Shown: positions 1,687-44,400 of the stretch, in pieces | Layout of the letters: every line of letters starts with the position of its first letter | Numbering within the stretch: the stretch's first letter is position 1 | Source of the DNA: Lasiosphaeris hirsuta | Lineage: Eukaryota > Ascomycota > Sordariomycetes > Sordariales > Lasiosphaeriaceae | Length of the DNA: 64,000 bases | Assembly: GCA_030549175.1 (NCBI GenBank) | Contig: JAUKUA010000002.1 | Location: 3,782,001-3,846,000, forward strand | Direction: 5' to 3' | Program-made: the position numbers and the translations under genes | The notes under the pieces: model-generated | Databases searched by the model: none | Seen by the model: the letters and a program-made list of their open reading frames with translations, nothing else | What the model was told of the DNA's origin: nothing

Positions 1687-1719
<33 letters not shown>
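1687..1719. repeat. (CT)n microsatellite
   Basis: An uninterrupted CT dinucleotide tract of about 16 units, with a few more pyrimidines on its left side. It lies about 500 bp upstream of the MARVEL start. It reads as GA on the minus strand, where GAGA-type tracts can exclude nucleosomes, but no function can be shown from sequence. Confidence 0.9.
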
Positions 1720-1723
<4 letters not shown>

Positions 1724-2194
1724 ACACCTCCGATGTCTCGCGGGTCGGACGGCAGATAAGACAATCCGCAAAACAATTTTGTTTCGCCCTGTCTTGTCGC
1801 AAAATCGCAAGTCGCAATGCGCCGGGCAGCAGGGAGACCCTTATGACGTCGATTGCTGATCGGTGGGCCAGATAATGCGCCAACAAAAATGGGTCCGCTT
1901 GGTGCAGGTACGGACAGAAAACCGGATGAACGAGACGGGAGAAAGGTCAAAAACGTATCTCAGGAACAGTCAACCAGGTTTCCTGGCGGCACGATATTTC
2001 TACGACGAGATATATGCGTCCATGTAAGAAAAGTGGTTGGTGACCTCACGTCTTGTCCATCAGCAAGCGGCGGATAAGCACAAAATAAGTGGGGGTTGGA
2101 GCTGTGTGTTGCTTGGCGCGACCCCCGCCGCCATCGCACCAAAGTGGCCTCAAAGTGGCTGGCTGGCTCTCCACACATCCACCCGGCATAAGGC

Positions 2195-2210
2195 GGGGGG
2201 GGGGGGGGGG
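2195..2210. repeat. 16-nt G homopolymer
   Basis: Sixteen consecutive G residues in non-coding DNA. The length is likely polymorphic and prone to sequencing error. Confidence 0.85.
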
Positions 2211-2617
2211 CTGGTGGCACGCCATAACCTAGGAAAACAACCTCAAGGTTCCGGGAAGACGGGCAGACGCATGGAATCAGGCACGGAACAAACCCTTACA
2301 AGGCCTTACCGGGAGGCCGGCTTGCGTTCCTGCACGTGTGTGGTAGCACCGTCACGATGCACGAACCGGTCTGGTGGACTGGGTGACTGGCCAAATAAGA
2401 CGTCCTTCACTCATTTTCCTATCCTATCTTGAGAGTCCTGGCAATCATAATAGCGAAGAAGCAGCACAGCCATCCATGCATCCAAAGTAAGAAAGACAAC
2501 CGAAATCCCAAGTCTGCAAAAAAAAACAAACCCGTCGGCAACATCAAGATCGATTACCCTATCCCAATCCCACGTTTTCACCCAAATGGTATATACCGAA
2601 ATAAACCACCGCTAAGG

Positions 2618-5600
2618 TCACGGCTCATGGTCATCAATCACATCCAACTCGTCAAAATCCTTGATCACTGGCCCCACGCTCCCTGTCTCTGCGCCATGGC
2701 CATTGGCCCCCATTCCACCTCCAAGCAATGGCCGATCGCCCCGCATAGCGCCTCCTCCACTTCCCGTGCCTCCACGCACCGCACTCAGCGCTGCCCTGTC
2801 CCTGCCCGACGAGCTGTATGCCGTAGTGAAGCTGCGCTGGTCATCCACCATCTCATCCAGCACGAGGAAACCACCATGTTGGCTGACATTGGCGTTGTTC
2901 CCCCCACCGTTACCATTGCTCAGCTTGTAGTTACTCATCGGACCTGTGTGGGCGTATGTCTGCCCTGGCGCTGAACGCTCGTGCTCGTCGACACGCTCGA
3001 TGGACCTCAGCATGGCTACCTTGGCGCTAGTGCTCTCGCGCACGCCTGACCGCGCCTTGCGTGACGATGTGACCGAGGGGGGTGACCGCACGCTGCTGCC
3101 CGCGTCGCTCTCGGAGTACGTCGACACGACACTGCCAGCTGAGCTGAACGACATGTACTGGCCGCCCGCCGCCGACGGTGCACGGCTGCTGCTGCTGCGC
3201 ACCGAGCGCGCCCCCGCTGGCGTGTAGTACCCGCTCTGGCCCGCAACCGAACCGCCGCCCCTCGTGCTGGGCGGCGCCCGCGGTAGCGGGAAGGCGTACC
3301 CCCGACTGATCGGGCTTGTACCTTCTTCGGCAGAGCTCTCCGCACCGCTATTAGCCGCGCTGTTGCTGATGTTCCACGTTCGCGGCGCGGTCCAGCAGTG
3401 TGACAGCTCGTGTGCTGCCTCCTCAGTGTTGCCCGAGTGGCCGCCGTTGAAGTTTTGGTTCGTTCCTGTCTTCCACGGTGGCATCTTGGCGCCCTTGAGC
3501 CGCGGCGAAAGGTGGTACGGCACATCATCGCGGTAGCGAACATTCGGCGCATCCACCGAGACACTTGCAAGTGTCTGCAACACGCCGTAGATGAGCACCC
3601 AGCGGCCCCGGCGTGCCGTGGACGGATCAACCTCACTAATGCGATCTGCCTTCTCAAACTTCCCAAACGCGTCGATGAGATCCGAATGCATGAACTCCGA
3701 GCCGAGAATGCAGATGTTGGTTGCCTCCGTGTATGCCAGCTGGATGCGTCGTTCTACCGCTCCCGGGCGGCCAGCATTGCCGTTGCCATTAGGGTTGGGC
3801 GCACTAGCATTGCCATTCTTTTTGTTCGAGGACTTGCCGCCGAACATGCCAGTCGACGAACCGTTCCTACTAGCCAACGAGCTCAAACTAGAGGAAGGGG
3901 GCGGGATCGACTCGGGCACTAGCGGGTAGGGGTGGGGGATATGAGGAAAGCGAAGCCTGTTGTCATATCCGATGAGCATATCCGTCAAAGGTAGGTCTGG
4001 CGTGTCGGCCTCGAAGCCTCGGTTGCCACATTCGCTGACCATCATCCACTTGCGGCTTGACCGCGCTTCGGACTCGTCCCAAACAATGTCGCGGTTGACA
4101 AGATAGTCGTACAATGCCGCGAAGTCCTTTTGCAACGCTTGCGATACCGTCCTCGTCAGCCACATATCCTCATCCCCTTCGGCCCCACCGTGGGCCGCCC
4201 CGATGGTCTGGTTGTCGAGGCCCTGTGGCATGGGGAGCGGGGGCCACCGGCCAAACTCGCGCTGGTAGTGCTGCAGGAAGAACTTCTGTAACCTGTCCGC
4301 GGCAGCCTTGGCCGGAGCCGTGGCTGCATCACCAGGCCACATGTCGCCATACTGGAATGCGGTAAGGCGCTCCTCGGCAGCTTGGACGCGGAGCTGTGTT
4401 TCCAAACAAGCCCTCTCAAGCAGCGCTCGCGTGATAGGCGTCACGTTTTTGAAGTCGGCGCACATCTCAAGCTGCGAATACATGCCTGCACAGTGCAAAA
4501 AGCTCTCACGCCACCCTTCCTCCCACCTGACTTCGCTCCCCTCACTCCAGGCCAGGATACTGACTGCCGTCTCGGCATCGTTGCGCACATCGTCGATGCC
4601 CCGTGCCGACAGGTAGTTGAGGATGGTACCGACGTTGTCGGCCTCTGGGGGCATGTATGATTCGAGGCGCGAATGCAAATCCGCCAGCGCTTGATACAGA
4701 GACAAGCCTACCAAGGAGGCGTGGTACAGTAGGGCAAATACATTGCGTGTGGTGATGTGGTGTCGTAGTTGGTCTAGCTTCGTCATGTTGGAAGGTGTTG
4801 GGAAGTACATCTCGTACGAAATCTGCCCATCCGACTCCCAAAGACTGTTGTCCTCGGAGACGGGAGGGGTTGGCTGCCCGCCGCGACCATTGTAGCCTCC
4901 GTTGTGCGGCGCAAGATGTTGTTGCCCGTGGTGGCCATGTCCGTGGCGGAGCATTGGCGGCGCGCCTATAGGGGATGGCGGCATGTGGATATCTTCCTCC
5001 GTTGAGCCTTCGCGCAGGAGGGTAATCAGATAACGTGATTCGGTCGCCTCAATGATGTGCGACGACAATCGGAAGGACGGGTTCGGCCGTGGAGATTGGC
5101 CCTTGTGTCCAAAGAAGACAAGCACATCGCCGTTCGGATCCCAGAGCTCAGGGTCTTTCCGCAACTTGTTCCACCTCTGAACGGGTCGTCCAGCACCAAT
5201 CCACCGCTTGATAGGCGGCGCATTACCACTTCCTGGTGGCACCGGAGGAAGCTTGGAGGAGGGTGGCGGCGATACAATGCTGGCGCTGTCTTCCCAGGGA
5301 CCAGAGTTCTGTGACCCCTGGTACTGGACCGGGGAGTTGTCGGCATCGTAAATGTCTTGCAGGTCACTGGAATACGCCTGCGTGCCTGGGTGCGGCCGGA
5401 CGGTCGCCGACGACTGCGGCCGGAAGTCTATCGCCTTGTCGACGTCGAGGTTCTTCTTGTCCTTCTTCTTGAATGCAAATGTCTTGGCGAGGCCCTTTCG
5501 AACACCCTCGCTCTTCTTGTCTAGGATGCTGCGGAAGCCCGACTTTTCGATGCCCGAGACGTCTTCCGTCTTGATTGCAGGCCTCCTAGCGCGGGCATAT

Positions 5601-5986
5601 GCAAAGTCCTCAAGGGGCCTGTTGTAGTGCGTTGCGCTGGAGGTTTCTCTCCTCCCGTCAATGCTGGATCCGCTCTGGCTACCACCACTCTGGTTCCCGT
5701 AGCTCGAGATGTCGTGGGAGTAGTTCAGTATCTCACTCTCCCGGGCAGGTTCCGAAAACTTGAGGAACCGCGCATTGGTAGTCCCGATGCCGGTGATGTC
5801 CCTATGCCTCTCCCGGTCCCTGTCCTGATTTTGCCGCAATGCGGGCATGGACCCTATGGGGTAGTCGCTGATGGTGGCATTGTCAGAGCTTGCGGTAGAC
5901 TTTGCTCGGCTTCGCACGCCATTGTCCCTTTCCCCGGGCTTTGTCTCGGTGATCTTTTTGCGCACATATGCGCTGCGGCCCGACAT
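2618..5986 (-). CDS. Large conserved-type fungal protein of unknown function
   Basis: One uninterrupted frame of 1122 residues from the ATG at 5986; the frame extends nine codons further upstream but without an ATG. About the first 250 residues and the last 250 are low-complexity (Ser, Gly, Pro, Arg) and probably disordered. The middle, roughly residues 260-880, looks folded. It has a stretch of Trp/Lys/Arg and aromatic residues around 265-320 (WNKLRKDPELW, VLVFFGHKG), then helical segments around 400-560 and 600-720. It resembles large single-exon Pezizomycotina proteins carried in databases as uncharacterised, possibly of the DUF8004 type; that label is from memory. There is no signal peptide or membrane segment. 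A nuclear or cell-cortex scaffold is conceivable, but nothing visible decides it. Confidence 0.75.
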   Translation of the reverse strand: MSGRSAYVRKKITETKPGERDNGVRSRAKSTASSDNATISDYPIGSMPALRQNQDRDRERHRDITGIGTTNARFLKFSEPARESEILNYSHDISSYGNQSGGSQSGSSIDGRRETSSATHYNRPLEDFAYARARRPAIKTEDVSGIEKSGFRSILDKKSEGVRKGLAKTFAFKKKDKKNLDVDKAIDFRPQSSATVRPHPGTQAYSSDLQDIYDADNSPVQYQGSQNSGPWEDSASIVSPPPSSKLPPVPPGSGNAPPIKRWIGAGRPVQRWNKLRKDPELWDPNGDVLVFFGHKGQSPRPNPSFRLSSHIIEATESRYLITLLREGSTEEDIHMPPSPIGAPPMLRHGHGHHGQQHLAPHNGGYNGRGGQPTPPVSEDNSLWESDGQISYEMYFPTPSNMTKLDQLRHHITTRNVFALLYHASLVGLSLYQALADLHSRLESYMPPEADNVGTILNYLSARGIDDVRNDAETAVSILAWSEGSEVRWEEGWRESFLHCAGMYSQLEMCADFKNVTPITRALLERACLETQLRVQAAEERLTAFQYGDMWPGDAATAPAKAAADRLQKFFLQHYQREFGRWPPLPMPQGLDNQTIGAAHGGAEGDEDMWLTRTVSQALQKDFAALYDYLVNRDIVWDESEARSSRKWMMVSECGNRGFEADTPDLPLTDMLIGYDNRLRFPHIPHPYPLVPESIPPPSSSLSSLASRNGSSTGMFGGKSSNKKNGNASAPNPNGNGNAGRPGAVERRIQLAYTEATNICILGSEFMHSDLIDAFGKFEKADRISEVDPSTARRGRWVLIYGVLQTLASVSVDAPNVRYRDDVPYHLSPRLKGAKMPPWKTGTNQNFNGGHSGNTEEAAHELSHCWTAPRTWNISNSAANSGAESSAEEGTSPISRGYAFPLPRAPPSTRGGGSVAGQSGYYTPAGARSVRSSSSRAPSAAGGQYMSFSSAGSVVSTYSESDAGSSVRSPPSVTSSRKARSGVRESTSAKVAMLRSIERVDEHERSAPGQTYAHTGPMSNYKLSNGNGGGNNANVSQHGGFLVLDEMVDDQRSFTTAYSSSGRDRAALSAVRGGTGSGGGAMRGDRPLLGGGMGANGHGAETGSVGPVIKDFDELDVIDDHEP

Positions 5987-6238
5987 ACTCGCTCGCCAAA
6001 AATCTCTAAGCAAAAATAAAATAGAGAAGAAAAGGGAAGTGGGTTAAGAGGCCAATTGACGGTCGGCCAAGACCAAGCCGGGCTGTTATTAATCGCCCAG
6101 CGTCCCCGATCGTCGTTGCGACGGTCCCAATGTGTCGGACGTGCCGACGGGTGTCAAAATTCGCGCTCTAACGTCACGATAGGAGATTTTGACTCCTTTG
6201 CTTTTTCAATACGGACTTGGACGGACGTGGACGGACGT

Positions 6239-6257
6239 GGGGGGGGGGGGGGGGGGG
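6239..6257. repeat. 19-nt G homopolymer
   Basis: Nineteen consecutive G residues, about 250 bp upstream of the start of the large unknown gene (minus strand, start 5986). It can form G-quadruplex on the plus strand in principle. The length is likely unstable. Confidence 0.85.
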
Positions 6258-7433
6258 CTTTTGCGCAACAATTTGGCCGAGAATCAGTGTTTTGTCGCTG
6301 CCAGTGCTGATGCTGCGGTGTTGAACGTCGATCACCAAACACTCGGGCCGTTGCTGGTTGGGATGGTGGGGCAGAGACAGGACGCCGTTAGATGCCGAGT
6401 ACAAATGTGCAGTGCGCGGTTGCGGATGACGTCTGGTTTAATGCGCGACCATAGCCAGACGGAGGCGGCTTTTGGGCGTCTGTCGCTTGTCTGGTCTATA
6501 TGCTATCTGGTGTTTCGTGTGGAACAAAATATCGCTCAGGATCAGAGGGTGCGCCGCAGCATCTGGGGTCAATCTCGTCCGAGTGTGTGTCGTCGCTCTT
6601 TCGTATTGTCAGTTCTCTGGTCTGCACCCATAACGGGGGGGCCTGCTGCTCGAGATCGAAGCGTATATGTTCAACATCCAACACAGCAGCCGCTCCTGGA
6701 GAAAGAGACAGTCGAGGGGGCGAAAAGAGCAGAGGATCAGAAACGGACAGGGTTAACGGCCCCTCGGTGGGAGAATATGGCAATATGACAAAAAGCGAGG
6801 GTCGAGGCAAAACGTGCACACTTGCTTTTTCCGTGGGCGGACAAGCAGCACCTTGGTCGAGCAACCGGTGCTTGTGCTTGGTACGTACTTGCAGGCCTGC
6901 TGCTCACTCACTTGATGCACGTTTCGCCCATGGGGGAGCTGCCGTTCGCTCGGGTCCAATCTTATCAGGGCGGAAAGCACCACACGCTTCCGAATCCAGC
7001 CTCTCTGGCTGGCTTGGTCTCGAGGGCCGCCGCGCTCCCTGGCTCGCCGGCGTATCAGGCGGTGTCGACGCTGGCGGGTTATCCATTGGTCTCAAGCAAT
7101 CTGGGGGTGTGGGATGGGAAGGGGCACCGGCCAATCCTTTCGCTTCCCTATCGAGATGGAGTGCTGTTCTTGGCTTGCAACTGGCCCGCGACTGGCTTGG
7201 CTGCTAAGAGCCGTTTCTAACGTCCATGTCACGCACAACACAGTACACAGTACACTCTGCAGCGGAGAAAGAGACGCGAGATGGGTCTCGCGGGCACCGA
7301 GGGACCTCGCGGAAGGGAAGCTGACATCAGGAATAGCGATGCGACTGCTACCTCGACTTGCGCGCGCAAAAGCGCGTCCCAACCCCAATGCGGCATAGAC
7401 GCTGCCCTACCGCGCTCTGATCCTATGCAGTTG

Positions 7434-10400: not shown

Positions 10401-11097
10401 GTGAGCTCGAAGCGAGGCCTCTTCGTATAGATGTTAGGGTGGGGGTCGGGAAGCGGACCTGGCAGCAAGGTGAGTTAAACGATCAAGGCATGCGCTCGGG
10501 CAACGAAGGATCGCGCGTCACCTAACGCCAGTTTGGGGGCTTGGAGCTAGAAGGATACCCAGTAGTGTAGCTATCAATGCCCAGACCACACACCTAGATC
10601 TCAATGATCCCATTCCTTCCTGTTTCATGGTGCACTCGAGGTCGTTGATAGGCTATTCGTGGGCCAGTGGTATAGGCAGCCAAGTAGCATCCTTCAACTT
10701 GCTTTCGCCATTCCTCCAAACGACTCATAATCAAGTTATCTGAATATTCACATCATCGTGTCTTGAAAACACAACTTGAAGTACATCTCGAACAAAGAAT
10801 TGTTGCCGAATACGTCATCACATACCATTATCCATCCCCTTGCTCCTAAAGTACTGCAGGAATTATTCGCATAATGTACCCTGAAGGCGCCACGCCACAG
10901 TGCAGAGAATCAAGTAACCTGCAGCAATTTATTTGGCCGAATGAAAAGGTTGCGGGTGTGAAGAAAACTGCAAGCCTTCGCGAGTCACAACTAGTTGGAG
11001 GTGCGTGCCCACGCACAGACGGCGCCATGTGCTCAGGCGACAGACAGGTGCGAATCTGGGAATACAGCAGCTTTGAATCCGTGCAGGCAAAAAGAAG

Positions 11098-11189
11098 GGG
11101 GCCACCCGGGGATTGAACCCGGGACCTCTCGCAAACACTGCTGTAGGGTGTGACCCTAAGCGAGAATCATACCACTAGACCAGCGGCCC
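11098..11189 (-). tRNA. tRNA-Pro(AGG) with intron
   Basis: On the minus strand the seven-base acceptor arms GGGCCGC and GTGGCCC pair (one G-T) with discriminator C. The D arm (TGGTCTAGTGGTATGA), the anticodon stem CTCGC/GCGAG and the T arm CCGGG-TTCAATC-CCGGG are all present. The loop reads TTAGGG with anticodon AGG. It is interrupted one base 3' of the anticodon by a 20-nt intron (11134-11153), the standard position for nuclear tRNA introns. A run of five T follows shortly after the 3' end on the minus strand, a Pol III terminator. It sits 218 bp beyond the 3' end of the CHAT-NLR gene. Confidence 0.93.
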
Positions 11190-11407: not shown

Positions 11408-14400
11408 TTAGTCGTCGTCAACAATGTATCCCGCCAACCTTAAAATCATCTCCGTCGGCACCTTATAGTCGCGTGGCATGGGAGTTCCACCGGGGAAAGA
11501 CCCGATGGGTCCTGGATCCCCAAAAACAGTTGCTGGCGTCCACGGCGTCGCTGGCAAATCCCTCCTCTCCGTGCCACCAGCCAACCAGGTTTCCCCGACC
11601 GTATAGAAATGGTCAAAGAATAGACGCTGTTGCTCCAACTCTAATCCTTCAAAGTGTCCGGTACCCGCACGCCAACCTGGCGGTCGAAACAGCCTCTCAC
11701 TTAGCTCCTCCATGCACTCAACAGAATATGCATCCTCCCCGTCCACATCGATCTGGCCCATCACGCGGTCAGCCAGTCCCGGCATGAATAGAGACTGCAG
11801 CGTGACAATCATATTCAGCGCAGCATACTCCCCCAGCGACTTCGGCTCCGCCATGCCCATCCCTCGGGCCAGCGCTCGCGCAGCGGGGGAATGGTGCAAA
11901 AAGACGCGTGTGCTGAGCATGGGAAACACCATCTGGCCGAGGAGAGTCGAGAGGAAGAAGATGGCGAGGGATTGCGGACGCCAGTCGGATGGGCCGAGGA
12001 CCCAGATGGGCTGGGTGTTGTTAGTCAGGTCCATGGTGGTCTGGAACGTTGTGGCGGCCAGGGAGGAAGGTGACGGGAGGTTGCGCTGGATGAGCAGCAT
12101 GGCGCGCACGAGTAGGTAAATGGCGGAGACGTCGCCGTCAAGGCGGCGGACCAAGGGGAGCTGTGAGAGGAGCGTGAGGGTTTTGAGTTCGAGGGGAATG
12201 TTGGTAGTGTGGAGGTTGTTTGCGCGCCGGAGAAGCGACCGGAGGAGGTGCTGGGTTGTGGGGGTATCGCCGGCGTTGTTGTGGAGGTAAGCCAGCTCGT
12301 GTTCGCGGGTGATGCGCTCCTCGAGAGTGAGTGGGAGGCCAGGAAGAGAGTCGCGGAGTTGATGAGCAAGGTTAGTGTTAGCAATAGCGTCGTCCCACTG
12401 CTCGTCGTCTTTGTCAATGGCGACAAGGCATCCCAGGAAAACAATGCGCGTTGCGGCTTGGTTGGATCCCGTGGCGAGTTCCTTCGCCATGGCACACCGT
12501 ACAACACGTCGCGCCTCGTTAAACCGCTTCTGCTTGCGAAGGCTCGCTACAATGGCGTGCACCTCAAGAGCGGGCGAGCCAGAGAGGGTAAGGCTGTTTA
12601 GTGTATGGGGCACGACGCGAGCGCGGAACTGATCGTGCGGGACCTCGTCCCCGTTACGGCTAGCCACCCAGGTGAAGTAGCGCTCACGCATAGTCCAAAA
12701 GGCCTCTGGGTCGGAAACATCGGCCGTGAGACCCTGCCATGAGTATTCGAGTACCTTGCTGCCCAACTCAGCGTACGGGTGGTTGAGACTGCCCAGCAAT
12801 GCCAACGTGCTTTCGACGTGCGGCCGCAGAGTCGTTTCAAGACTATCGTGTAGACCGCGGCTGCCATCAAACATGCCGGTTCGGAACACGGTTCCGGCAA
12901 GAGTGGTCTCTATGAGAACGACGCATCGTAGGATGAAGTTCAAGACCTCTTGCGAGCTGCCGAGTCGACTCACGACGCCACTCACCGAGTCGATTTGTGA
13001 GCACAAGACAGCAGCGACAGTGGCGTTTCCTGTTGGTGGGTGGACTAGCAAACCAAGGCCACGGGTGAGCATCTCCTCAAATGCAAAGGAGAGGAGTTCG
13101 TAGCAGCTCTTGTCTGAGAACAAGCCCTTGCCCACATTAGAGCTCAGTAGAAAGATAGCCCACTCGAAGAGTGTGATTCCAGGGGAGCTATGGACGGCAG
13201 CTAGTAGTGCTCCGTAAAGATTGTTAAAGTTCAATCCTATTTCTCTCCGTGCATCCTCCCATTCGTCTTTCCAGTAAAAGCTCGAGGTGGGAAAGGAAAA
13301 GCAGGACTGCAGCTGGAAGAGTACGAATGCTCCCTGCAGCGCATTCATCGTCCTCTGGAAGTCAACCCTACTCCTGATGTATACGGTTAGAATAGGGCTA
13401 AGACCATAAAACAGCTTTCGAGGTCTATCTTGCGAGGATTTAGCGGCAGCTGGGTTGACTAAATTCAGCTCATGTAAGTCGCCGATAAGCTTGTGTATTT
13501 GACCTTGGATAGCGCTGATTGCAGGTTTGAGTTGCGATTGCTGTCCAGAGGAAGAGCCAGACTTCTCAGATACAGAAAGTGATAGGATAAATGCGGTGAA
13601 TAGCTTCTCCTCAAGTCCGGATGGTGTTGTTGGAGTTGCGTCAAACCCCATCGTGCTGCCAACGGCACGACTCATCCTGGCCGGATCGCTCAGCGTACCC
13701 ACACTAGCAAACAGGACATATTTCCACAAATCTTCCATCGGCATAAACCCCCAAAACATACCTAGGGCCGCAGGGTGGAGTGGTGGCTTGAGTTGAGTAG
13801 TGTCCTTGTTTGCCTCGTCCAAGCCAAGGTGTTTATTGAGGATTGCCGCAAGAACAAGATTACTGATCTCATTCTCGCACTTTTCGCAGTAATCTCTGAG
13901 CTGGCGGATAGTTCTTGCCCCATCGTTGGACTCGGCCTGATCTGGCAGATAGTCGATACCGGCCCCTTCGAGTAAACCTGCCATATAGCTTCTTACGCTA
14001 ACGTTTTTCTGTGCAAAGTCGTAGGCAAGCATCTTCAAAGCTAGGGGGTTGCCGTCCACGAGCTTTACAAGCCCTTCTAGATATTTTAATGTGACTCTCT
14101 CAAGGGCCAAGGCCGGGCCATCATGAAAAGAGACCTCGGCGACGAACAGCCTTGTTGCTCGAGTCGTGACGAGACCCGACATTCTCTGGGAAAAGGCGCG
14201 TTTTCCCACACCCGATATTTTCTCCAACCAAGTTTCTTCCCCTCGAGAAACAAAGACGAAGAAACTTTGGCCACCGTGGACCTTGCCAAGGAAAGTTTTG
14301 AGGCGCTTTTGTTCGGTCCTCTTTGAGCCACCCTCTGGGACCTTCCACGACTCCAAGTGGTCGATGATAATGAGATGCCGTGTCTTGTTGAGGTATTCCA

Positions 14401-15888
14401 CTATTTCGGACGCACGGTCTGAGGACCCAAGTACCGATCTGGCAACGTAAGCCTCAATGTTGGCCATGTCAATGGCCTCGTGCTTATCCTTGAGATCTTC
14501 AGAGTCAACGTTTAGGTAGGCGACGCCTTCAATCAAAAACGTCTTCAGCCACCATTGGCCGACGTTATTCATCAGGGATGTCTTTCCAACTCCCGGCTCG
14601 CCCTTCAAAACGCCAATATTGGAGTCCATTAGAAGCATGCTCTCAAGCAGGAGGATGTCGTTTTCTCGGCCGATAACGTTCTGAGATGAGTCTGCGACGG
14701 TTGAAGAGGGTGGAGTGGGGTTAACACGCGATTCGACAAGCGGCCGGTCGTCCAGATTTGGGCTTTGAAAGCACCTAGGGACTAGATAATCCAGGACATT
14801 CACAGTAATACCAAACTGAGTCTTCTTTGCCGGGTGCTCCTGCATAGCCGCCCGAGCCACTCGTAGCCCTTCGGCCAAGGTAAAGCCGCCGAGCAAAACG
14901 GCGTCATAGAATGTGCGAACCATTTGGTCGACGGCTGAGGAGGCAATTTTGTAGGACATGGCCACGACAGCAAGCATGCCGTAGTTTACAAGAGTCGCGG
15001 CGATGTTGGAGTCGGAGGAGCCCGTAGCAATCGCTGACTGGCACGCATTTAGGACAGCGTACTTGACTCCGTTTCTAACAAGAACTTCGGAAACCTCTTT
15101 GGCATTGCGTGGGTCGGTAGTCAGCGTCAGCTCATCTCCGGATCGGGATTTTCGAAGGAATGAGAGCGTCGCCCTGATCGAAGAGGTTACTGCTATGAGC
15201 TAATTATTTAGGGTTGAAAGGTGGGTACTAACAGGGAAGTGGTCGCTTCTCCATGCATATCAAAGTGAACAATGTCGAAGAACCCTTTTGGGCGGCTGCC
15301 AAGATGGTCTTCGAAGCCATCGAAAGTCCCCGGCCGAACAATCTCGACACGGGCCTTCCCCAATGTCAGATCCGCCACCTTGACAATTGTCGACGAGACG
15401 AAGCGATGGGGAATATCTTGATCCAGTTGCGGCCGGGCAATGACAACAAGGATATTGATAACCTCTTTTGTTTCGTAAAGACACACCGTGTCGATTGGAG
15501 ATGTTTCACACGCAACACATCTCGTCACAGTGACGACGCCTACTCGACTGGTTGAGGGCCAAATTCCCGGTTGCTCAAGGGCTTCCCAGAATAAATCCTC
15601 ACTATGACCTTGGAGTACTTGTATGTGGACAGCTTGCAGTTCAAAGTCGAGCTGGGAGAGGGCGAGACCCTGGACCAATTTACGTCCGTATGTTGAGACT
15701 AGGTCTTGAGCCTCCTCGGCCTTCGATGCCTGGAACGGGTCGTCTTCGGCGTAGTCTTCGAAATACCAGCGTAGTAGCTGATAGTCATCGTCAGTGCAAA
15801 GGGTCGGAAGGTAAACATCATGTGATGTTTCCTTGAATTCGAGGCGAATCTGTCCGCCTCGGAGTGGCGTAATTCGGAGTTTGGCCAT
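11408..15888 (-). CDS. CHAT-protease NLR/STAND-type protein
   Basis: Two exons (15233-15888 and 11408-15173) give 1473 residues. The 59-nt intron (15174-15232, GTTAGT...ATCAG) keeps frame and rebuilds one CHAT domain. CHAT domains are caspase-like (clan CD) cysteine proteases. The probable catalytic pair is His212 in FDMHGE and Cys263 in VLNACQSA, one on each side of the intron. The CHAT domain ends near residue 350. A P-loop NTPase follows: Walker A GEPGVGKTS at 410-418 and a Walker B-like LIIIDHLE near 486-493, with NB-ARC/NACHT-like sequence after it. The C-terminal half is helical and partly TPR-like (around 1080-1240), with no clear WD40 or ankyrin repeats. Start: the frame extends upstream, but the ATG at 15888 has an excellent GCCATGG context. 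It is divergent from the gasdermin-like gene, which suggests a sensor whose activation releases protease activity toward that neighbour. Confidence 0.85.
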
Positions 15889-16246
15889 GGCGAACAAGCT
15901 TCGTAAATTTGGTAGCGGAGTAGCGGAACATGAGGAAGATAGCTGTGCGAGTGAGGTGGTTGCGGTGGGCGGTAGGATTATTGTTCAGCTCAAATAGGCC
16001 AAACGAAATAGGAATAGGGGCAAAGCGGCGAACCCCTCACGAAAGCCGAAAATATTGGTCATACCCATGTGATAGAGTGCGGCTGAGTTTCAGACCCCCG
16101 TTCCACCTCCCCCCCCCCCCCCCTACATCTTCGGAATAACTTCACGGCCTGGTCTCAAAACCTTGGTCGGACTTCAACTTCATGACCTCGAATAGACAGA
16201 AGCAGAAAATCATCGAAACTTGTGACCACTAATAACGAGAGAGGAA
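15889..16246. promoter_or_regulatory. 358-bp divergent promoter of the CHAT-NLR/gasdermin-like pair
   Basis: The start codons of the two genes face away from each other over 358 bp, so they must share upstream DNA. Visible elements are an inverted CCAAT box at 16054-16058 and a 15-C run at 16109-16123. No clear TATA box is seen near either start. Joint control is an inference from geometry. Confidence 0.6.
16109..16123. repeat. 15-nt C homopolymer
   Basis: Fifteen consecutive C residues (G on the minus strand) inside the divergent promoter, about 125 bp before the gasdermin-like start codon. Confidence 0.85.
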
Positions 16247-17182
16247 ATGCCGACTGCCCTCCTCCCCAATGACCCGATCTTCTTCCGCTTGCGGGGACAC
16301 GTCCTGCCCCCCGGCTCCGAAGCGAAGAAGATGCTCGGGAGGGTAGTCCGCAACTATGCCCAACCTCTGGGCGGCGGATATACCCCCGAGGATGGCTCCC
16401 AATTCACTTTCGGACCACCAGACGAGACAAAGTGGTTACGCGCGAGCGATATCTTCTCGCGCTCGGCCTCTGGGTCCATCGATGTCCGGCTGCTTCCAGG
16501 GTCTGGCGCATCGGCGGAGTTTGACCACGCGCAAAACCACGCCTTGACAAACAGTGAGGTGCTCGCCCTGGCGCTGCGACACCAGCCTGAGGTATATCAG
16601 CGACTTCTCGCGGACCCCGAAGCCGGGGCTTGGATTCGGGCCAACTGTGGTATAAACCGCCCGTTATTTATGATCACCGGTGTGCTGGTTTGGCGCGACG
16701 CTGTTCAGCAGGATGTATATGAGAAGAGGGCTGCCGGGCAGGCGCAGATTGACCCCGTGGCGGTGGCGATGGCGGCGACCCAGACGGCTGCACCCCTTGC
16801 TCCTCTCGTAGCCGGTAGCACAGGGATCACAGCTGCTGGCGAGAAGGTTGAGGAGCGGAACCGGGAGCGGGAGAGCGAAGACAGCCATGTTTTTGCGGTC
16901 GAATACAAGGTGATCAGACGGCGCAGGCGCGACTTCCTAGGTGGTTTCGCTCCCAAGTTCCAGGACCACGGTCCGGCGGTTGATACAGATCGTCAGTATG
17001 CAAACGCTGTGGCTGCTGGGTTGGACGCGGCGGGGGGGCAGGAGGAGGATTTCCCTGAGCTAGCTCTGGACTTTCCTTGGCTGGATGCTGTGGAGGAGTT
17101 GGATGGTGTCGGCGACATTGACACAAAGATAGTGGAAGCGGGAGAGAAATGTGTTGAATTCGCCATCTTCGAGGATGAATGA
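16247..17182 (+). CDS. Gasdermin-like pore-forming protein (predicted)
   Basis: An intron-free frame of 311 residues. The length, the lack of a signal peptide and the order of elements resemble fungal gasdermin-like proteins, the family of Podospora HET-Q1 and Neurospora RCD-1. These act at the plasma membrane in regulated cell death after removal of a short C-terminal segment. Seen here: a Pro/Gly-rich N-terminal part (1-50); a helical stretch at 100-130; a hydrophobic strand PLFMITGVLVW at 139-149; an Ala-rich segment at 168-197; a charged stretch at 200-212; a second hydrophobic strand HVFAVEYKVI at 214-223 followed by five arginines (224-228); and a strongly acidic tail (266-311). The basic patch suits acidic-lipid binding and the acidic tail could be the inhibitory end. 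The assignment rests on remembered family resemblance plus the CHAT-protease neighbour. Fungal gasdermin-like genes are known to cluster with protease genes. Confidence 0.72.
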   Translation: MPTALLPNDPIFFRLRGHVLPPGSEAKKMLGRVVRNYAQPLGGGYTPEDGSQFTFGPPDETKWLRASDIFSRSASGSIDVRLLPGSGASAEFDHAQNHALTNSEVLALALRHQPEVYQRLLADPEAGAWIRANCGINRPLFMITGVLVWRDAVQQDVYEKRAAGQAQIDPVAVAMAATQTAAPLAPLVAGSTGITAAGEKVEERNRERESEDSHVFAVEYKVIRRRRRDFLGGFAPKFQDHGPAVDTDRQYANAVAAGLDAAGGQEEDFPELALDFPWLDAVEELDGVGDIDTKIVEAGEKCVEFAIFEDE

Positions 17183-17552: not shown

Positions 17553-19509
17553 TCAAGCATTCTTCGTGCCCTTCTCGCCCCCAACGTCATCGCTATCGCC
17601 CCTCAAGCTCTCACGCTCAGCCACCGATGCCGCCGGCGGGACGGCGGCAGGGTCCGTCGTAATCGTGTCCTCAATCTCGAGGGGCAGCGTCAAGCTCAAG
17701 ATCATGGCGACCATGGCCGTGACGGCAAATCCAGTTTCCATGACGAGGCCAATGGCGTCGAGGAAGCCCTGCAGACTCTTGTTGTCACCCTGGTAGGTGA
17801 AAACGTGCTCAAAGTAGTTGGGGACGAGAGTGGCGCCGTAGCCGAGGGAGAGGGCGGCGGTGAGGATAAAGCGGTTGCGGCGGTTGAAGGGGACACCGCG
17901 GGCAATAATGGCGATACCCGAAACAGCGACGGCGCAGAACAGGAAGGTTGTCATGCCGCCGATGACAGGGGCGGGGATGGAGACGAGGGCGGCGGCGAAC
18001 TTGGCGAAGACACCCATGATGATGAGGAACATGCTGTGGGAATTGAGTTAATGATTGTCCAATAGAGTAATTACGAAGATGGATTTCTTACCAGCAGCAG
18101 TAGCCGGCCATTCTGTTCGCGCATCTGGTTAGGGCGATAACACCATTGTTTTGCGCAAAGGTGGTCATTGGCGTGATGGTGCACAGGGCAGCTAGGATGC
18201 CGATGATGCCATCGGCCAAGACGCCACCTTGGATGCGGCTCTCATAGATCTCGCCCTCCACCTCAAGGCGCGAGACGTCGCACGTTGCCGTTATGTCGCC
18301 AATGGCTTCGGTGGCGCAAATAATGAAGACGGCCAACATGGGGAGCACGAGAGGAGCGTAAATGCTGAGCTTGAATGTGTGCACCCAAACGAACGAGGCA
18401 GCGGGGGCAGAGTCGATGCCAGAGCGGTCAAAGTAGCCCGTGGCACTCGCAATGATGCATCCAACAAGAAGGCCGATGACGACGCTGGTGGACTTCATGA
18501 TAGGGGCGCCGAAACGCTCACACAAGATGATGGTGAGGAAGACAGAGAAACCGAGACCTGGTGGTGAGTCAGAAGCAGCTCGATTGACACCCAGATAAAC
18601 ACATCATGTCTTACCAAGATACTCAGCCGAGCCCCAGGGCAGGGCATGCGGTGCGGTGATGTTGGGGCACTTGGCGAAGAACTCAAGGGGCTCGAGATCA
18701 GAGCAGAGACCCGAACCGCCCGCCCAGTTCTTGAAGCCAGACTGGATGAGGTTGATGCCGATAAGCATGACTGTGGGGCCCGTGACAAGAGGCGGGAAAA
18801 TACGCAGCAGGACCTTGGGCGGAATGAACGAGATAAGGATTTCAAGGAGGGCGCAGACAGCGGCGGTCCCGATGATGGCACCATAGCCATCGGGACAGGG
18901 CAGGCGCTCGCCATCTGGGCCAGTCGGACAGAAGCCGTTGGCGTACATCTGGCTGAAGCCGCCCGAGGCGACGGGAATGATGGCGAACGAGATGCCGACG
19001 ACTGAGATGAGGCCGGTACCGATGTAGTATCTTGAAGCGCGGGGTTAGATATTAAGCCCGGACCCGCCATAAGGCGTCAGTCAGGGGATGACATACGGAG
19101 TCTTGTAGATGTGGAACCTCGTGATTTGGATGGCGGATAGTGTGCCCGAGACGATCAGAGCAGTGGATACGAGGTACTGGGTCATTTCGGTGGTGAGGTT
19201 GACGCCGCCGGCGCCGGCCATGATGATAGGGGGAGTGATGACGCCAGCCAACATGGCAAGCGAGTGCTGGAAGCCGAGAACAAGCGCAAGGACGACAGGC
19301 ATCTTGTCATTGAGCCCGAAGAAAGGCGGGACCTGGTCCGACTTCTTCATGAAGGGCAGGTTGGGCCTGAAGAGAAAGCCATAGTTGTAGTTGCCGACGA
19401 GGCCCTCGCGGGTCCCGAAGGTCTTCTTGATGGCCTGCAAGCGGTCGCCGAAGGTCCGCCGTGGAGCCTTCTCAGGGACGATCTGCGACGGTACCTGGTC
19501 CTCATCCAT
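17553..19509 (-). CDS. Xanthine/uric acid permease (NAT/NCS2 family, UapA/UapC type)
   Basis: Four exons: 19097-19509, 18615-19030, 18092-18557 and 17553-18033. Introns are 19031-19096, 18558-18614 and 18034-18091 (57-66 nt, GTATGT or GTAAGA donors). The protein has 591 residues, close to the roughly 575-580 of Aspergillus UapA and UapC. It has about 12-14 hydrophobic segments typical of nucleobase-ascorbate transporters and the NAT signature QNNGVIALTR near residues 416-425. It would import purines such as xanthine and uric acid across the plasma membrane by proton symport. The first splice gives the conserved-looking KTPYYIGTGLISVVG. UapA versus UapC specificity cannot be settled here. It converges on the gasdermin-like gene with no obvious functional link. 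Confidence 0.93.
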
Positions 19510-29224: not shown

Positions 29225-31758
29225 CTAGTTGAGCGCATTCGGTGGAAGATCCGTGGGAGGGTAACATCGGTCAACGGCTAGTTCCTGAAAAGCGTTAGCA
29301 TGATAGCACAAAGAATCAAGCCATGTAAACTCACATCATTGCCCCACCAAAACGGCATGGTTGCAGCGGGTAAGTTGATGCCGAACATGACGACGGTCGA
29401 AGCAATTTGCGAGCCGCAATCAAGTCCGACGCCGAGCAGGTAGTTGTACTTGCGGAACCATGCGCCATGATACCGTAGCATGTAGCCCATGAAGAAAAGA
29501 GCCAGAGATCCTGAGGTAAACAGGTTGACAGTCTGGTAAACTGGGAACGCGACGGCGCCGTACATGATGACGACTGGATTGCAGCGCGTCTCGAGTTCCC
29601 ACTCGGGCTTGAAGCGGTGGACCACGTAGACGATCACCACTAGCGCCGGCCCAAGAAGAAACGCCCAGTACATCCAGGCATACTCGGAGCCAGCCGAGAA
29701 GAATACTTTTGGTCCGAGGATACCCCAAAGAACCGAGATGCTGTAGTAGTTGCGCGTCTTCAGTGCGTACCACCCCGGGTTCTTGATGATACCCTTCAAC
29801 GTATCGGCGCCGATATAATCAATGATCATTCGCATGACACCGTAGTTGACAAAGGGTCCAAGTAGAGTGCCGTAAACCTGAGCCCAGAACATCTCCTTCT
29901 CGGGTACTTTCATGTAGAAGCCGAACTTGTAATCAGAGATCAAGTTCAGATTCTGCTCCAGAATCTGGCGCCCGTAGGTCATGCAGGCCAAAACGGCAGC
30001 CGGGTTGCCAGGGAAAAGGCCACCGGCCATCAGCTCGGAGATGAAGGCCATGCCAACCTGCATGTTTGCCACACCCCATAAAATGCCGTTCGGGAATGTG
30101 CAGATGACTGAGACGATGCAGGTCAGGATGAATCCCCACCAGGGTAGACCAATCTCGGCACCGTAGAGACACCCAAGAGATAGGGCGAGTGACACAGCCA
30201 GGAGAGTAAGATACCACCAATGCGGGACACGGGCAGTTCGGCTCATGAGCTTCAAGTAGGGATCATTGTAGTCGCTACGGCGACCCTTCCAAGATTCGCT
30301 CACGGCTACCCACGAGTCCTTTCCATACCACAATGCTGAGTACACTATGGCGCCAGTCGAACACGCAAAGCCCCAGAAGAAGTACATGGCATACGAGATG
30401 GACCAGTGAGGAAGAGAGTACTCATCCATGGCTGTCTGATTGAGCGTGTACTGTGGCGTGAGGATGCGGCTGATGTTGTACTTTTGGCCCTGGTCGTCAA
30501 ATGTGCCAGATGACATGGGCGGATAGTTGAGGGCATTCAACGTGTTGGTGAAGTACATGATGGGATAGATCAACCATACGGCAACGGCGGCACCACCAAT
30601 CTGAGAAGCGTTGGCCCATAGAGGGGTGTAGAGTGGCTGCCAAAAGGAAGCGTAGTTCCAGTCGAGCGAGATGTCGAGCATGCCGAAGCCGTAGGTACCC
30701 GATCCCATAAGAAAACCCCTCCACTGGCCATGGGCGAAGTAGCACACCAGCGGAAGTGAGGATAGCATGGGGAAGACGAATCCAGGGAACCACTGCCAGA
30801 TGAAGGTGGCAGTGGCGACGTAGGTGAAGAAGCGGAGCGACTTTTTGGTGACCGATGGGTTGTGGTGCATAGCATTGAAAAGCGCAACGTTGGGGAGCAC
30901 TCCGGGATAGTACATCTTGGGCGGGCGGACGAGGATATCCCGGAAGATGCCAGCAAAGCCGTAGCCGATCATTTGTGTCGTGAGCAGAAACAAGATGCCC
31001 CAGCCAGCGTTGATTCTCCTGCCGTAGTACAGCTCCATGGCGGATAAAGGACCAAGGCCATAAGCTGTGTAGCACTGTTGTTGGGCGGAAGACATCCACA
31101 TGTCAGCAGCTTGTTTCTCGGGGAAAAGAAAGGAGAAGGAGTGGACAACAACATACACTTCCCCAGTACGCGACGACAATCAACGAATGCTCTTTTGCAT
31201 TCCAGGGGCCTGGGTTGAAGCTGAAGGAGCGGCCAAAGACGGCGAACTTTCGCGTAGGCAGCCATCTGGCCATGAAGTCTCCCATACCCCATGACAGAAG
31301 CTGGACGGCATAGCTGGTGAGTGTCGTCGTGTACGGTTTGAAATAATACATGGACGAAACACCGCAACCGACAACAACCCAGAAGGTGGACAAGAACCAA
31401 AAGCGGAACGTGAGAATCGGCTCGCTGTTAATGGCATTAGAATCGAGAAATCAAACTAGGGATGCTGGATCGGCACTCACTTGAAGTCATTGTGCAGAGA
31501 TACGGTCTTGGCCACGAGAGGGACTGGGTAGTCCTTCAACCTAGGATCGATGACATCGTCGTTTTCGTCGGGGACGTATATCTTGGCGGCGTCGTCGTAG
31601 TCGGAACCAACGACATTGTCCGAGGCGGAAGCAACCTCGATGTCGCTGGTGCGCTTCTCATCCTGAGCTGCCTTGTCGTTGGTGACACGGGGCTGGGTCT
31701 CAGGGACGACCTCGACGATGTCGAGGTCGTCCTTGCCGGTCTTTTCGCCGACAGCCAT
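29225..31758 (-). CDS. Oligopeptide transporter (OPT family)
   Basis: Four exons: 31481-31758, 31157-31424, 29335-31074 and 29225-29284. Introns are 31425-31480, 31075-31156 and 29285-29334, and the protein has 781 residues. The last intron is easy to miss, because reading through it gives a false C-terminus; the spliced end is a 19-residue tail finishing PPNALN. An acidic cytosolic N-terminus (about 1-90) precedes roughly 14-16 membrane segments typical of the OPT family (yeast Opt1/Opt2, fission yeast Isp4), proton-coupled importers of tetra- and pentapeptides or glutathione. The sequence NPGPWNAKEHSLIVV in the second exon is characteristic of the peptide-transporter branch. It probably sits in the plasma membrane and supplies peptide nitrogen. 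The substrate cannot be assigned. Confidence 0.92.
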
Positions 31759-38479: not shown

Positions 38480-41400
38480 TCAAGGATCCGTCGAGGCAGA
38501 CTTGGTGGGTGCTGGCGCCGATTCAGTCGAGGAGAATTTGAAGACGCCGGAGTAGCTAGGGGAGCCCGTGCCCGTTGGTGTCTTCCCCATCGTATCATCA
38601 TTGTCTTGACCGGTTGGCTGCATCAAATTTGTCGAATCCAGCTGCTTCGTAAGGGATTCAGGGATGTATTTGCCAGCAACGATGGGACCAATAATCATGG
38701 CAAGGAACAGAACAAGCAAAGCAAAGTAGAGAACAGCGTAACGGAATACACGTCTCTTGCGGAGCTTGGACTGCTTCATAGAATAAATGGGGGGGCGAAT
38801 TTGGCGACTGTACCACACTGTTAGCTATGAATCTTGCAACCAGTAAAAATGGTAACGTACCTTGGGCGAAGCCAGAAGAGCATCATGGAATGCAGCTTGT
38901 CGACTTGCGGGATCAAAATGACTGGAAGCATCATGAACAGAATAATGTGACCCAGCACAAAGTCTGCAGCGAACATGCTCAACTCCGTGATCTTGCAAAG
39001 GAACTCACGAGCTGGCTGAGAAACGGTGTGCCAGCCCATAGAGTACCATTTACCGGTCCAGAAAGCAATGTTTGACTGATCCGTCTTGAACTCTCTGGTA
39101 AGTGTCAAGGAGATGATCAACTTGAAGATAAAGCGCTGTATGGAAACCACGGTGATCATTCCCAGGAGGGTCTTGGCGAAGTCAAATCCTTCTAGGAAGA
39201 ACATGACTTCGAAGAAAACCAAGAGGAAGACGACAGCAAGACCGTGAGCGATGCCAGCAAGTACGCTACCGAACTTCTTGCAGCACATACTGAGGAGCGG
39301 TCCCATGAAGCAGGCCATGAAGAAGAAGACCATCAAGACACCAGCGTTGATGGCGATAGGTGCAAAAGCAACGATACCCACCCGCAGAAGCGATGCAGTA
39401 GGCTTCGCATCCGGGTTCAGCCCCTTGTTGGGGCCATTGACACCTGTCTGCGCATTGATGAACAGATATGGAATGAGGGTCAAGGCCACAAGCATGAGCG
39501 GGAAGACAATCTCTGCCCAAAACATGTTAACAATGGCAGCCCGGGGAACATCGGCGGACATCTTGCTGGAAGGATCGCCCAGAGTCTTGCGCTTGTATCC
39601 AGTAATTCTGGTTCGGGAGAGGCGGCAAAACGAAATCCACGAGGATGCATGTGAGCGCGAGTTACCGCGGGACAGCCACCGAAGGAAGTCGCGGTAATCG
39701 ATGAAGAAGTCGTTCCAGGCAAACTGATGGGGGTTGTACAGGAAAGGCGAGACAACCAAGGCCAACAGCGAGATCCAGAAATAGACCAGAGCCGCTTGCC
39801 AGATGGTGAGTGAAGCAAACAACAGCATCATCAACATGCGAGCTCCGAAGTAGATAGATGGCCCGGCAAATCGAGAGTAGAGGATACCGAAGGGAATACG
39901 AGCAGTGGCAAATCCACGACCGGTACCGATGTATCTAGCTCCTCCAAACGAGAGATCCTGTTGAACCGAATTGGCGTAAATCTGGCAAACGAAAACCTCG
40001 AAGAATGGCGAAAACGAGCAGAACTGCTTGGCGAAACGGGTTGCTGCACGCCATAGACCACGCTCCGTCAACTCCTGGACGAGCAAGGGCACGAACGAGA
40101 GGAAGAAGACGAAGAAAATCGACAAGATACAGCGGTAAACCCAATCCATGAGGGCGTCGGTGTTCTGGCAGCCAGTAGGAACGAGCGGGTCCCTAATGGG
40201 CACGTTCCGGTTGTAGTCGCAAGGAATAGTTTCCCTGCGCAGGGCGCCAATGTTGACGAGGCAGATCATGAAAAGCTGGACGGACAACATGATGAACATG
40301 TTGTTCAAATGAAAACCGGGATGGGCGTAGTAAAACGAGAGGAAGCGATCCAGGGGCAGTTGCGTTCCGAGATAGTAGTATTCTCTGGAAAGCATCTGCT
40401 CTCCCATACCGGTTCCAATCTTGGTAGTGAAGTTGAGAATCGATCCGAAGCCCAAATCACGACCCTTGCCGCATTGATAATACTCGCAGTGCTTGATGCG
40501 ACCACCACGAAGGAGTGCGTTCATACCAGCGTAAATATCCTCGTTCAGATGCAAGCCCTTCTGAGCCTTGGACACACCTCCACGAGTTGTCATGAAAATG
40601 CCGTTGAGGAAATCAGGATGACCATAATGGAGCTTGCCACCAATCTGAGCCAGTGTTCTCGAGAAGAGAGTACCAAATGTCTGTTCCTTTCCGGCGGCGA
40701 CGTCACCGAGGATACCAATATTCTCGGAGAAGATGTATTCACGAGCTCCCAAGATAGCAACAGGGGCCTTGGCGACATTCTTAACACCGGGTGTGTATGG
40801 CGAGACATTGTCGGTCTTCATCTCCTCGAACTCGGCGAGAACACTGCGGATCTTCAGGCACTCCTCGAGATAATTGTCTTGATTGGCATCGATGAGCTGG
40901 ATGTACTCGCCACGGTAAAAGATCAGAGAGTGGTTTTGGTTGTCAGATTTGCCATCGCCAAGGATGGGGTTACCGGAGAGCTGGATGCGGAACTTGGGTC
41001 TGCGCATGCCATTCTCCATGATCTCAGAGTGCCCGTCGATAAGAGCAGAGTACAGACGTGGCTCATCTCCTTCAGCAAGTGGGGGCTCCTCGTCCAGATA
41101 AGCGATCTGAAGATCAGGGTACGCGCGAAGAAGGAACTCAGCGTTCTCCATCTCCTCCTTCTTGAACTTCGCATAACGTTGCATAGAGATGACCAGCTTG
41201 AACTTGCGACGGGCCATACGCTCCAACTCACGCTCGAGCTTATCGGAGTTGCCGCCGAACATCTGAACAACCTCGGGGTTCTCGACGCGGTAAAGAAGCT
41301 TGATAGCACGGCTGTAGTTCATGAAACCAGACACAGTGCGGTAGAGCGTCTGGAACCGAAGAGAAGCCCAAATACGAGTCCTGAGCGTGTACTCGGGTGC

Positions 41401-44400
41401 AGACGACTTGAAACCAATGCAGTAAAACGGAAGATCGTCAATCTTGCTCTTCGCGGTGTCCTTCTCGTTCTTGTCCACATCGCCATTAAATTGTGATGTT
41501 TCGTCAGCCAAGATCTTGGTGTCCTTGACGAAGCAGTCCCACTCGTGAGGATGCAGTTGCTTGAGGTACTCCAGGAGCGTGACTCGGGAATAAGGCTCAT
41601 CCTCACGAATGATCTCTCTCAAGGAGAGGAGGATCTTTTCGCTGTAATGAGGAATCAGAACCGTGAACGTAGGCATGTTGTCAACCGGGAGAGGCTCCGG
41701 AATAGGCGTTGACAGCGACTGCGCAAAGAACGATATTCTACGCTCTGCCTCGCTGTGAGACGGGAAGAATTCCGTTTTGAACGAGTGATCCTCCTGGGAA
41801 ACGAAGAAAGTCGGTGCCCTGAGCGTCCGCTTGCCCTCCTGTTCGGACGGAACCTGGTGATAAAGCAGCTTTTGGACGTGGTCGATGGCGAGAAGATGCT
41901 CGCGATACATTGAAATGACGATAGCATTCCAGATCTGCGAGATGAGAACCTTAGGCTTGTACTTGATCTCCATGTCGGTTGTCGCCAGGATCTTCGAGTA
42001 AATACGCTTGGGGAGACGAGAGAAGATGTTTCTCCACGGGGTCCAAATCGATGATCCAATGTAGAATGACCGAGCAATGGAGAAAATGGTGTTGAGGAGG
42101 ACATAACAAAGGTACGTGTCCAAGAAGAAGAAAATCATGTCCGTGAAGATCATAAAGCCGAGTGTGATTTGTGGTTGATACTGGCAGAGATACCTTTGCA
42201 CAATCGTGTCTCCCAGGCAGCTCGACACATCCATGATCTGAAGATATCGGATAGGATCACGTAGCGACAGTGCCAGATAGAGATAGGACTCTCCAAACTT
42301 GAGACCAAACACTACCATCCAGAGACCAAAGGACATGGCCATGTCGTTGCCGGCGAGACGTGGATAGCTGGCAGTGAATGTCTGACTCGCCACATATTTC
42401 CGGGAGTTCTTGGTCAGGTAGCTTCCGAACAAGCCACCGAGGGGCATGACCGAGAAGAATACGAAGGTGATGACGGCAATGAAGAACTGCACAATTCCAA
42501 GAATCAACGCAACCTTCCCGTTCTGCCTCTCAAGATAGGCTTCGGTGTCTGCGGCTGGCATGAAGACGTAGACTCCAGGTCCAAAGTTGATGATGAAGAT
42601 GACAATGAGGAAGAGCAGCCGCTTGGTGAGATGCTGAGCGCCAGCCCATTTTCTTGGGACGTACGCCCATTCCGCGAGAGTCGCCATAATCTGAATCAGA
42701 GAGGCAATGGATCCTCCAAAGCCACAAATCGACCAAACAGCAGCATTGGGTGGCTGGTTATTGGCTTCCTGCTCGTAGTTTGGTGTGATCAGAGTGGGCG
42801 AATTGTATGCGGTATAGAACCAGAACATGGTAATATGAATGATCCAAATGCGGTTGAAGTTGACGAGCATGTGGAACCAGGAGCGGTTTTCCTTGTAGGT
42901 CTTGAAGAACACCTTCTTCCAGTTTACATCCTTCAGCTTCAAGTAGCGCTCGGCAGGAGGCAGGTCAACAAGCTTGCTCTTGTCTCCAAGAATGATGCGT
43001 TCGATACCCTCGGGGTACCAGAACAGCTGGTTACAATCATCGTAGCCAATAATCTGGTGGTGATCGCGTTCACGGCGGACGTAAACCCCATCCAGAATTT
43101 CGTAGCCCTGGTCCCGGCAGTACTGGTAGAGAGGCGTAATGACGTTGTTGAGGAATGTGAGTTCTTCAACTGGCTCAACCAAGGCCTGGCACGCAGGCGA
43201 GTTGAGATAGTCGTCTGCGCACTTGAAAATGAAGCACAGACATTCCGGCATGAAGCGGACTTGATTAGCTTCTCCCCAGCAGAGCAGGTAGAGCGCAATC
43301 TGGCGGACGCGGTCGTGCTGAGACATCCGGTTCATGCGTGTCTTCCAGCGATATTCGGCAGCTTCCAAGGAATCATCACCTTCCAAATCCTCGAGTGCTT
43401 GGTTCTCCGTTGCTTGAGCCTTCTTGTTCTTCTTGGACCGTTTGAGGCCCTTGCCTTTGATGTTGGCGAAACCAACAGCATCGTCCAAGTCAAGGTGGGC
43501 AGCAAAGTACCACTTGCGGTAATTTGCGTTGTCACCGCCAATGTAGTCGGCATGGAGTGATAACAGCGCCTGATTCGGCGTCATGCGCGATGCCCTTGAA
43601 TCAAGAAGCGTCATGAAATGATCATACATGTTCCGCATGCTGTCGCGCTGGAAACCAAACTTTGCGGTCAGGTCGAGGAAAATGTCTTCCACCTCCTCCT
43701 TGGAGAGGGGGATCTGAGCATCGGAGGTCCAGGCTGGGTACGGTTCCCGAGAACGCTGGCCAGCTGGCAAAACATTGCCGTAGTCCATTCCATAGTTCGG
43801 GGTGGATGCACCTGATGACCGGTTCCCGCCGTAGGAAATCTGCGAAGAAGGGGGGCGATATCCTCTGGCTCCTCCCTGGCCTTCGTTGTAGCTGTTGTAG
43901 CGCTCGTCGCCGCGTCCGTAATAGTCCATGTCGGTAGCGCGCGCCATGTCGGATCTCATGGTGAAGTCGCTGAAAGTCTCCGAGTCTTCCTCGGAGCCAC
44001 CTCGGGGAGCCCGGTTGGCGTACCCGCCCTGTTCATAGCCCTGGTCATAATAAGGGTCTGCGCCATTGTTGTTGTTGTTGTAATAGTCGTCATGATACTG
44101 CTCCTGGCCCTCATAATAGCCGCCATCCTGCTGGTATGGGTTGTTCGCGTCGGCATTGTAATATCCACTTGAAGAGATGTTAGTATATAAAACGTGAACC
44201 TTCAACATCGATATTTCTTACGATTCGTCGTAGTATCCTTCGCCTTGCGGGCCTGGGGTCCTTCCGTGCGGTGGTTCTGGCTGTCCACGCGCATCGTAGG
44301 CGGCGTTGTTATCGTAGTACTGATGCTCGTCCTGGTAGTAGGAATCCGTGTTCGCACCACCCTGGGGAGCCGGGCCATATCCATCGTCGTAGTCCTGATG

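Follow-up and report, generated by a model that had tools for sequence, protein, structure and literature searches.

A CHAT-NLR gene and a divergent gasdermin-like gene in head-to-head arrangement in Lasiosphaeris hirsuta: a predicted cell-death pair

The genome of Lasiosphaeris hirsuta (Sordariales; 44.4 Mb in 14 contigs, with B0H67DRAFT_550890 and B0H67DRAFT_686198 among the deposited proteins) carries on its contig C7 (6.67 Mb) a pair of divergent genes, which we analyzed within a stretch of 64,000 nucleotides, called the window in the following. The larger gene consists of two exons and one intron and encodes a protein of 1473 residues with a CHAT protease domain in front of an NLR-type NTPase (CHAT-NLR), and its spliced product is identical in every letter to the deposited protein B0H67DRAFT_550890 (P0013). 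The smaller gene is an intron-free open reading frame for a gasdermin-like protein of 311 residues. Both genes are arranged head-to-head with their start codons 358 bp apart, and the region between them is presumed to be a bidirectional promoter. This layout had already been described in a first-pass annotation made from the letters alone, and the exons and the open reading frame reproduced it exactly (Table 1).

Table 1. Features of the gene pair and the five CHAT/gasdermin-like pairs of the genome. Positions without a contig name are those of the window.
Feature	Position	Strand	Remarks
CHAT-NLR exon 1	15233..15888	-	first part of CHAT with His212 (codon 15253-15255); matches P0013
CHAT-NLR intron	15174..15232	-	59 bp, GT...AG
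CHAT-NLR exon 2	11408..15173	-	remainder of CHAT, STAND/NLR NTPase, C-terminal part made up almost wholly of helices
CHAT Cys263 codon, LNAC motif	15041..15043	-	invariant among the nine aligned proteins
Walker A (P-loop) GEPGVGKT, residues 410-417	14579..14602	-	K416 and T417 invariant among the nine aligned proteins
GNPLAL motif, residues 593-598	14036..14053	-	from sequence and alignment
Shared intergenic region between both start codons	15889..16246	.	358 bp, from sequence; putative bidirectional promoter
Gasdermin-like gene, 311 residues	16247..17182	+	from open reading frame, profile, model and fold searches
Gasdermin-like body, residues 7-248	16265..16990	+	longest stretch covered by alignments with fungal gasdermin structures
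D248-R249, candidate cleavage point at body-tail boundary	16988..16993	+	from alignment and inference
Acidic C-terminal tail, 62 residues past R249	16994..17179	+	6.6 kDa, pI 4.05; presumed inhibitory
Pair 1	window locus, C7		358 bp between start codons
Pair 2	C12:608253		389 bp between start codons
Pair 3	C11:2468713 (locus C11:2463573-2469525)		295 bp from first ATG of a C-terminal-CHAT protein with a sub-cut-off TPR match
Pair 4	C7:6584721 (L031 = C7:6584718-6589837)	-/+	gasdermin-like 1719-2672 (-), receptor 3410-6838 (+) of L031; 737 bp
Pair 5, weakest	C13:832196 (L032)	-/+	4194-4589 (-) with 5236-5938 (+); in pieces, intron-split or decayed

The same annotation had assigned a CHAT domain and a P-loop NTPase to the large protein, and both were recovered. 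The CHAT domain reaches 42.6 bits against a Pfam cut-off of 24 and contains both His212 and Cys263, which we take to be the catalytic positions of CHAT. Nine of the ten search matches were aligned (P0022, which shows NB-ARC without CHAT at 18% coverage, was omitted), and Cys263 is kept in all nine CHAT-NLR proteins and His212 in all three rows reaching that far. Regarding the NTPase, AAA lies just over its cut-off (22.1 versus 21.2 bits) and NACHT under it (22.7 versus 26.7 bits); in the relatives P0016 and P0018 NACHT exceeds the cut-off. The features of a STAND NTPase are present as the Walker A motif and as HLIIIDHLE around the invariant D490, and the GNPLAL motif resembles what we take to be the GxP motif of NLR/STAND NTPases. 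Using Foldseek and a model of the part behind CHAT as query, we obtained plant NLRs and a STAND-TPR protein as the eight top matches, NRC3 and the STAND-TPR protein being the best, and the top rows of VIA were a mix of STAND, ORC and p97 proteins with one plant resistosome. P0013 was omitted from the alignment for this model, since its first row already was the window's own piece. The C-terminal part consists of nearly nothing but helices in the model, with a per-residue confidence (pLDDT) partly under 50, and the STAND-TPR structure matches over 902 columns at a TM-score of only 0.15/0.24. No repeat family was found by Pfam in the 1473 residues, the CHAT-NLR profile found nothing in the PDB at E 0.01 or better, and PADLOC returned a weak TRIP13 (AAA) match. 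Judged by its sequence and model, the large protein is an NLR with a predicted N-terminal CHAT (caspase/separase-like) cysteine protease as effector.

For the small protein, single-sequence searches gave only sub-cut-off chance matches in Pfam (e.g. Pilosulin) and two unrelated matches in the PDB, with no solved gasdermin among them. A profile made from the orthologs only reached RCD-1 in the PDB at E 0.45–0.84, and with two paralogs included HET-Q1 came first (E 0.0021) and RCD-1 next (E 0.006). Alignments of the two gasdermin-like subfamilies match each other with 96% probability, and in 200 shuffles of the columns the value never exceeded 2.9%. With the AlphaFold model as query, ranks 1–15 of Foldseek were all gasdermins at low TM-scores, ranks 1–17 of VIA were all fungal, bacterial or animal gasdermins, and RCD-1 was the best match in both. 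PADLOC detected a weak match of the paralog P0007 to the bacterial gasdermin (bGSDM) model (E 0.0076) and no match for the 311-residue protein or the second C7 paralog. The profile and fold searches thus support the gasdermin-like layout suggested in the first-pass annotation and, at the low confidence of the model, a gasdermin N-domain fold is what the model matches best, the absence of which had been named there as the finding that would speak against the proposal. Sequence profiles and model together point to a divergent fungal gasdermin, which would be expected to form pores and to kill cells.

Pairs of this kind recur in the genome. It was searched by exon, and all counts are lower bounds: at least 15 CHAT matches were found at E 0.1 or better, 14 of them over the cut-off, and with six queries we counted at least nine gasdermin-like candidates. 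Three weak matches had been dropped before counting as probable chance hits, namely C9:2616555 (21 residues, E 0.12), C1:296191 (19 residues, E 0.36) and C7:2509595 (E 0.97). Five of the nine candidates lie at most 4.3 kb from one of the 15 CHAT matches, and all five pairs are divergent, both genes pointing away from each other. The matches on which the C13 locus was included are weak (E 0.97, reverse E 0.062). Two receptor layouts are used in these pairs, with CHAT placed either close to the N-terminus or, following TPRs, at the C-terminus; after the protein on C11, the partner at C7:6584721 is the second that carries CHAT at its C-terminal end together with a TPR match under the cut-off, again head-to-head with a gasdermin-like gene. 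Taking a limit of 6 kb, which was set after the distances had been seen, the chance of five out of nine is about 1.3e-10 and that of four out of eight without the C13 locus about 1.8e-8, and in 2,000,000 runs of random placement of six loci none gave three or more such neighbours. The candidates at C9:623557, C9:4590473, C12:1118020 and C12:1175341 have no nearby CHAT match, and the match at C12:1175341 contains three stops. Gasdermin-like candidates without a nearby CHAT (L033 at 4558-5013, L041 and L042) share by eye a (Y/S)(I/M)VTGLK stretch. A frame beside C9:4590473 (L041) that looks S8-like by eye is not claimed as such, PF00082 giving no match at E 0.001.

Outside this genome, the gasdermin ortholog P0002 and the CHAT-NLR ortholog P0017 share a data source, and the contig carrying each of them is exactly 45,047 bases long, and because of this common source and contig size their genes are very probably linked. 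This is the case for one of five gasdermin orthologs; the contigs of the remaining four measure 1.1–7.8 kb at longest. The first-pass annotation had also made its proposal depend on the pair being kept together in relatives, and with five CHAT/gasdermin-like neighbours here and P0002 with P0017 elsewhere the subfamily is apparently co-conserved.

Of the small proteins, 14 were aligned, comprising the window protein, its five relatives, two further paralogs and six members of the subfamily of P0007. All 14 possess an acidic tail, their last 60 residues having net charges between -11 and -23, and this tail is presumed to hold the gasdermin inactive. At the boundary between body and tail an Asp is found in 14 of 14 and Asp-Arg in 12 (D248-R249 in the window protein), the two exceptions being the C12 paralog with Asp-Lys and the second C7 paralog with Asp-Met. 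The structural match ends at 247–248 in nine of the 17 VIA gasdermin rows, including all three fungal ones, and at 225 in the other eight. The CHAT relatives separase and metacaspases cleave after basic residues, and this makes R249 a plausible cut point. As Asp-Arg is also present in the gasdermin that adjoins the TPR-CHAT gene of C11, and in the five relatives of that gasdermin, it could be an activation site common to differently built CHAT receptors.

The CHAT-NLR/gasdermin cell-death pair is well supported by these data, and we consider it probable that both genes form a pyroptosis-like death module, in which the CHAT-NLR would cut the gasdermin near residue 249. The C-terminal helical part of the NLR would sense a non-self or danger cue, the NLR would then assemble through its STAND NTPase, and this assembly would switch on the CHAT protease. 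Cleavage near residue 249 would remove the acidic tail, and the freed gasdermin body may then form membrane pores and kill the hyphal compartment. For the trigger there is precedent in Podospora and Neurospora in the form of non-self recognition following hyphal fusion. Several points weigh against this model or its exact cut site: the AlphaFold model of the small protein is of low confidence, also in the region around D248-R249, where the alignment has gaps; a conserved basic run at residues 224–230 is an alternative cut candidate; and in HET-Q1 the cut follows a Phe and is made by a different type of protease (PMC10989679). Thus, a cut at R249, directly after D248-R249, is a tentative proposal, and so is the idea of a divergent, separately evolving CHAT-NLR/gasdermin lineage whose own CHAT cuts the gasdermin directly after the boundary Asp-Arg. 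In the passages covered by our literature search no cleavage site was found for any CHAT-controlled fungal gasdermin, an absence that is unproven as the primary survey lay outside the scope of the search.

A death module could also work without cleavage, with the CHAT-NLR acting as a scaffold or cutting something else and the gasdermin assembling on contact as the RCD-1 variants do. Such a mode of action is described for the Neurospora RCD-1 pair in a review (PMC12881547), and in the fold searches RCD-1 came out on top for the 311-residue protein; however, the invariant CHAT Cys and His, the acidic tail in every small protein with its boundary Asp-Arg in 12, and the view expressed in the same review that proteolysis controls most fungal gasdermins (PMC12881547) make it unlikely. 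Somewhat less likely still is that the small protein is another kind of partner, e.g. a CHAT inhibitor or chaperone, which resembles gasdermins by chance in a poor model: the low confidence, the low TM-scores and the lack of single-sequence matches in PDB or Pfam would suit it, but all top matches of Foldseek (15) and VIA (17) are gasdermins, the profiles match HET-Q1 and RCD-1, and P0007 weakly matches the bGSDM model, unlike the window protein and the second C7 paralog. Chance adjacency of genes with unrelated functions can be rejected as very improbable, for although one locus alone is weak evidence and four candidates lack a nearby CHAT match, the pairing is found at five loci in this genome, at the probabilities given above, and probably in a second data source.

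According to passages of reviews (PMC10197012, PMC12881547, PMC10989679), about 80% of fungal gasdermin genes adjoin protease genes (about 63% S8 and 17–19% CHAT), dozens of CHAT NLRs occur in fungi, CHAT-NLR/gasdermin clusters are explicitly reported, and a CHAT protease with TPRs is the activator of a gasdermin in Podospora. Since gasdermin/CHAT neighbours, CHAT NLRs and the Podospora TPR-CHAT activation are all reported there, our locus is a new example of a described pair type. The first-pass annotation correctly called the general pattern known, and going by these passages the kind of pair is more fully described than it implied. Its overall interpretation is partly supported: the NTPase model does resemble plant NLRs, and cleavage, oligomerisation and trigger are predictions. 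In the fungal clusters with Q2L proteases a gasdermin likewise lies beside a CHAT gene, and some of these CHATs are part of an NLR (PMC10197012, PMC12881547, PMC10989679). The window subfamily differs from them in its divergence, as a single-sequence search reaches no solved gasdermin. The primary survey of such clusters is reportedly that of Clave et al. 2022, as cited in the reviews. HET-Q1 of Podospora anserina, our best profile match, is a protease-controlled gasdermin with a short C-terminal part, as is predicted for the 311-residue protein, and is reported as losing about 5 kDa (40 residues) when cut, but HET-Q2 is an S8 subtilase that cuts after Phe238, whereas the window protease is a CHAT cysteine protease inside an NLR (PMC10989679). 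RCD-1-1/RCD-1-2 of Neurospora crassa, the best fold match, are a two-variant pair activated by meeting and not by cleavage (PMC12881547). The hetB protein of Aspergillus fumigatus, which we liken to the CHAT-NLR by description alone, is also a large CHAT protein (1,327 aa) and acts in heterokaryon incompatibility, its other allele being predicted as a short protein (PMC11138114). Bacterial gasdermin operons combine a gasdermin with an adjacent protease (PMC12881547, PMC10197012), and VIA lists gasdermins of bacteria among its matches; these operons are bacterial, in contrast to the fungal locus here, and are likened to it by description. Among the papers listed for Lasiosphaeris hirsuta in the literature search, none contained the species name.

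Further genes of the window are a tRNA-Leu gene (11097-11189, -) about 220 bp downstream of the CHAT-NLR reading frame, a fragment of a xanthine/uracil permease (17556-18032, -), an OPT oligopeptide transporter (29281-31101, -), a 1,3-beta-glucan synthase of the FKS1 type (38824-44208, -), a CoA transferase (59947-61353, -) and an open frame of 1122 residues (2618-5986, -) without Pfam match at E 1e-5.

In summary, the type of gene pair itself has already been described, and new in comparison with the reviews are a divergent and apparently co-conserved CHAT-NLR/gasdermin subfamily and the candidate cut point D248-R249. A review names the trigger of such pathways as a major question still open in the field (PMC12881547). 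The locus would represent a compact receptor-plus-executioner pair with a caspase-like enzyme built into the receptor and, with two receptor layouts in one genome, it can be asked whether the cut site is common to both despite their differing receptors.
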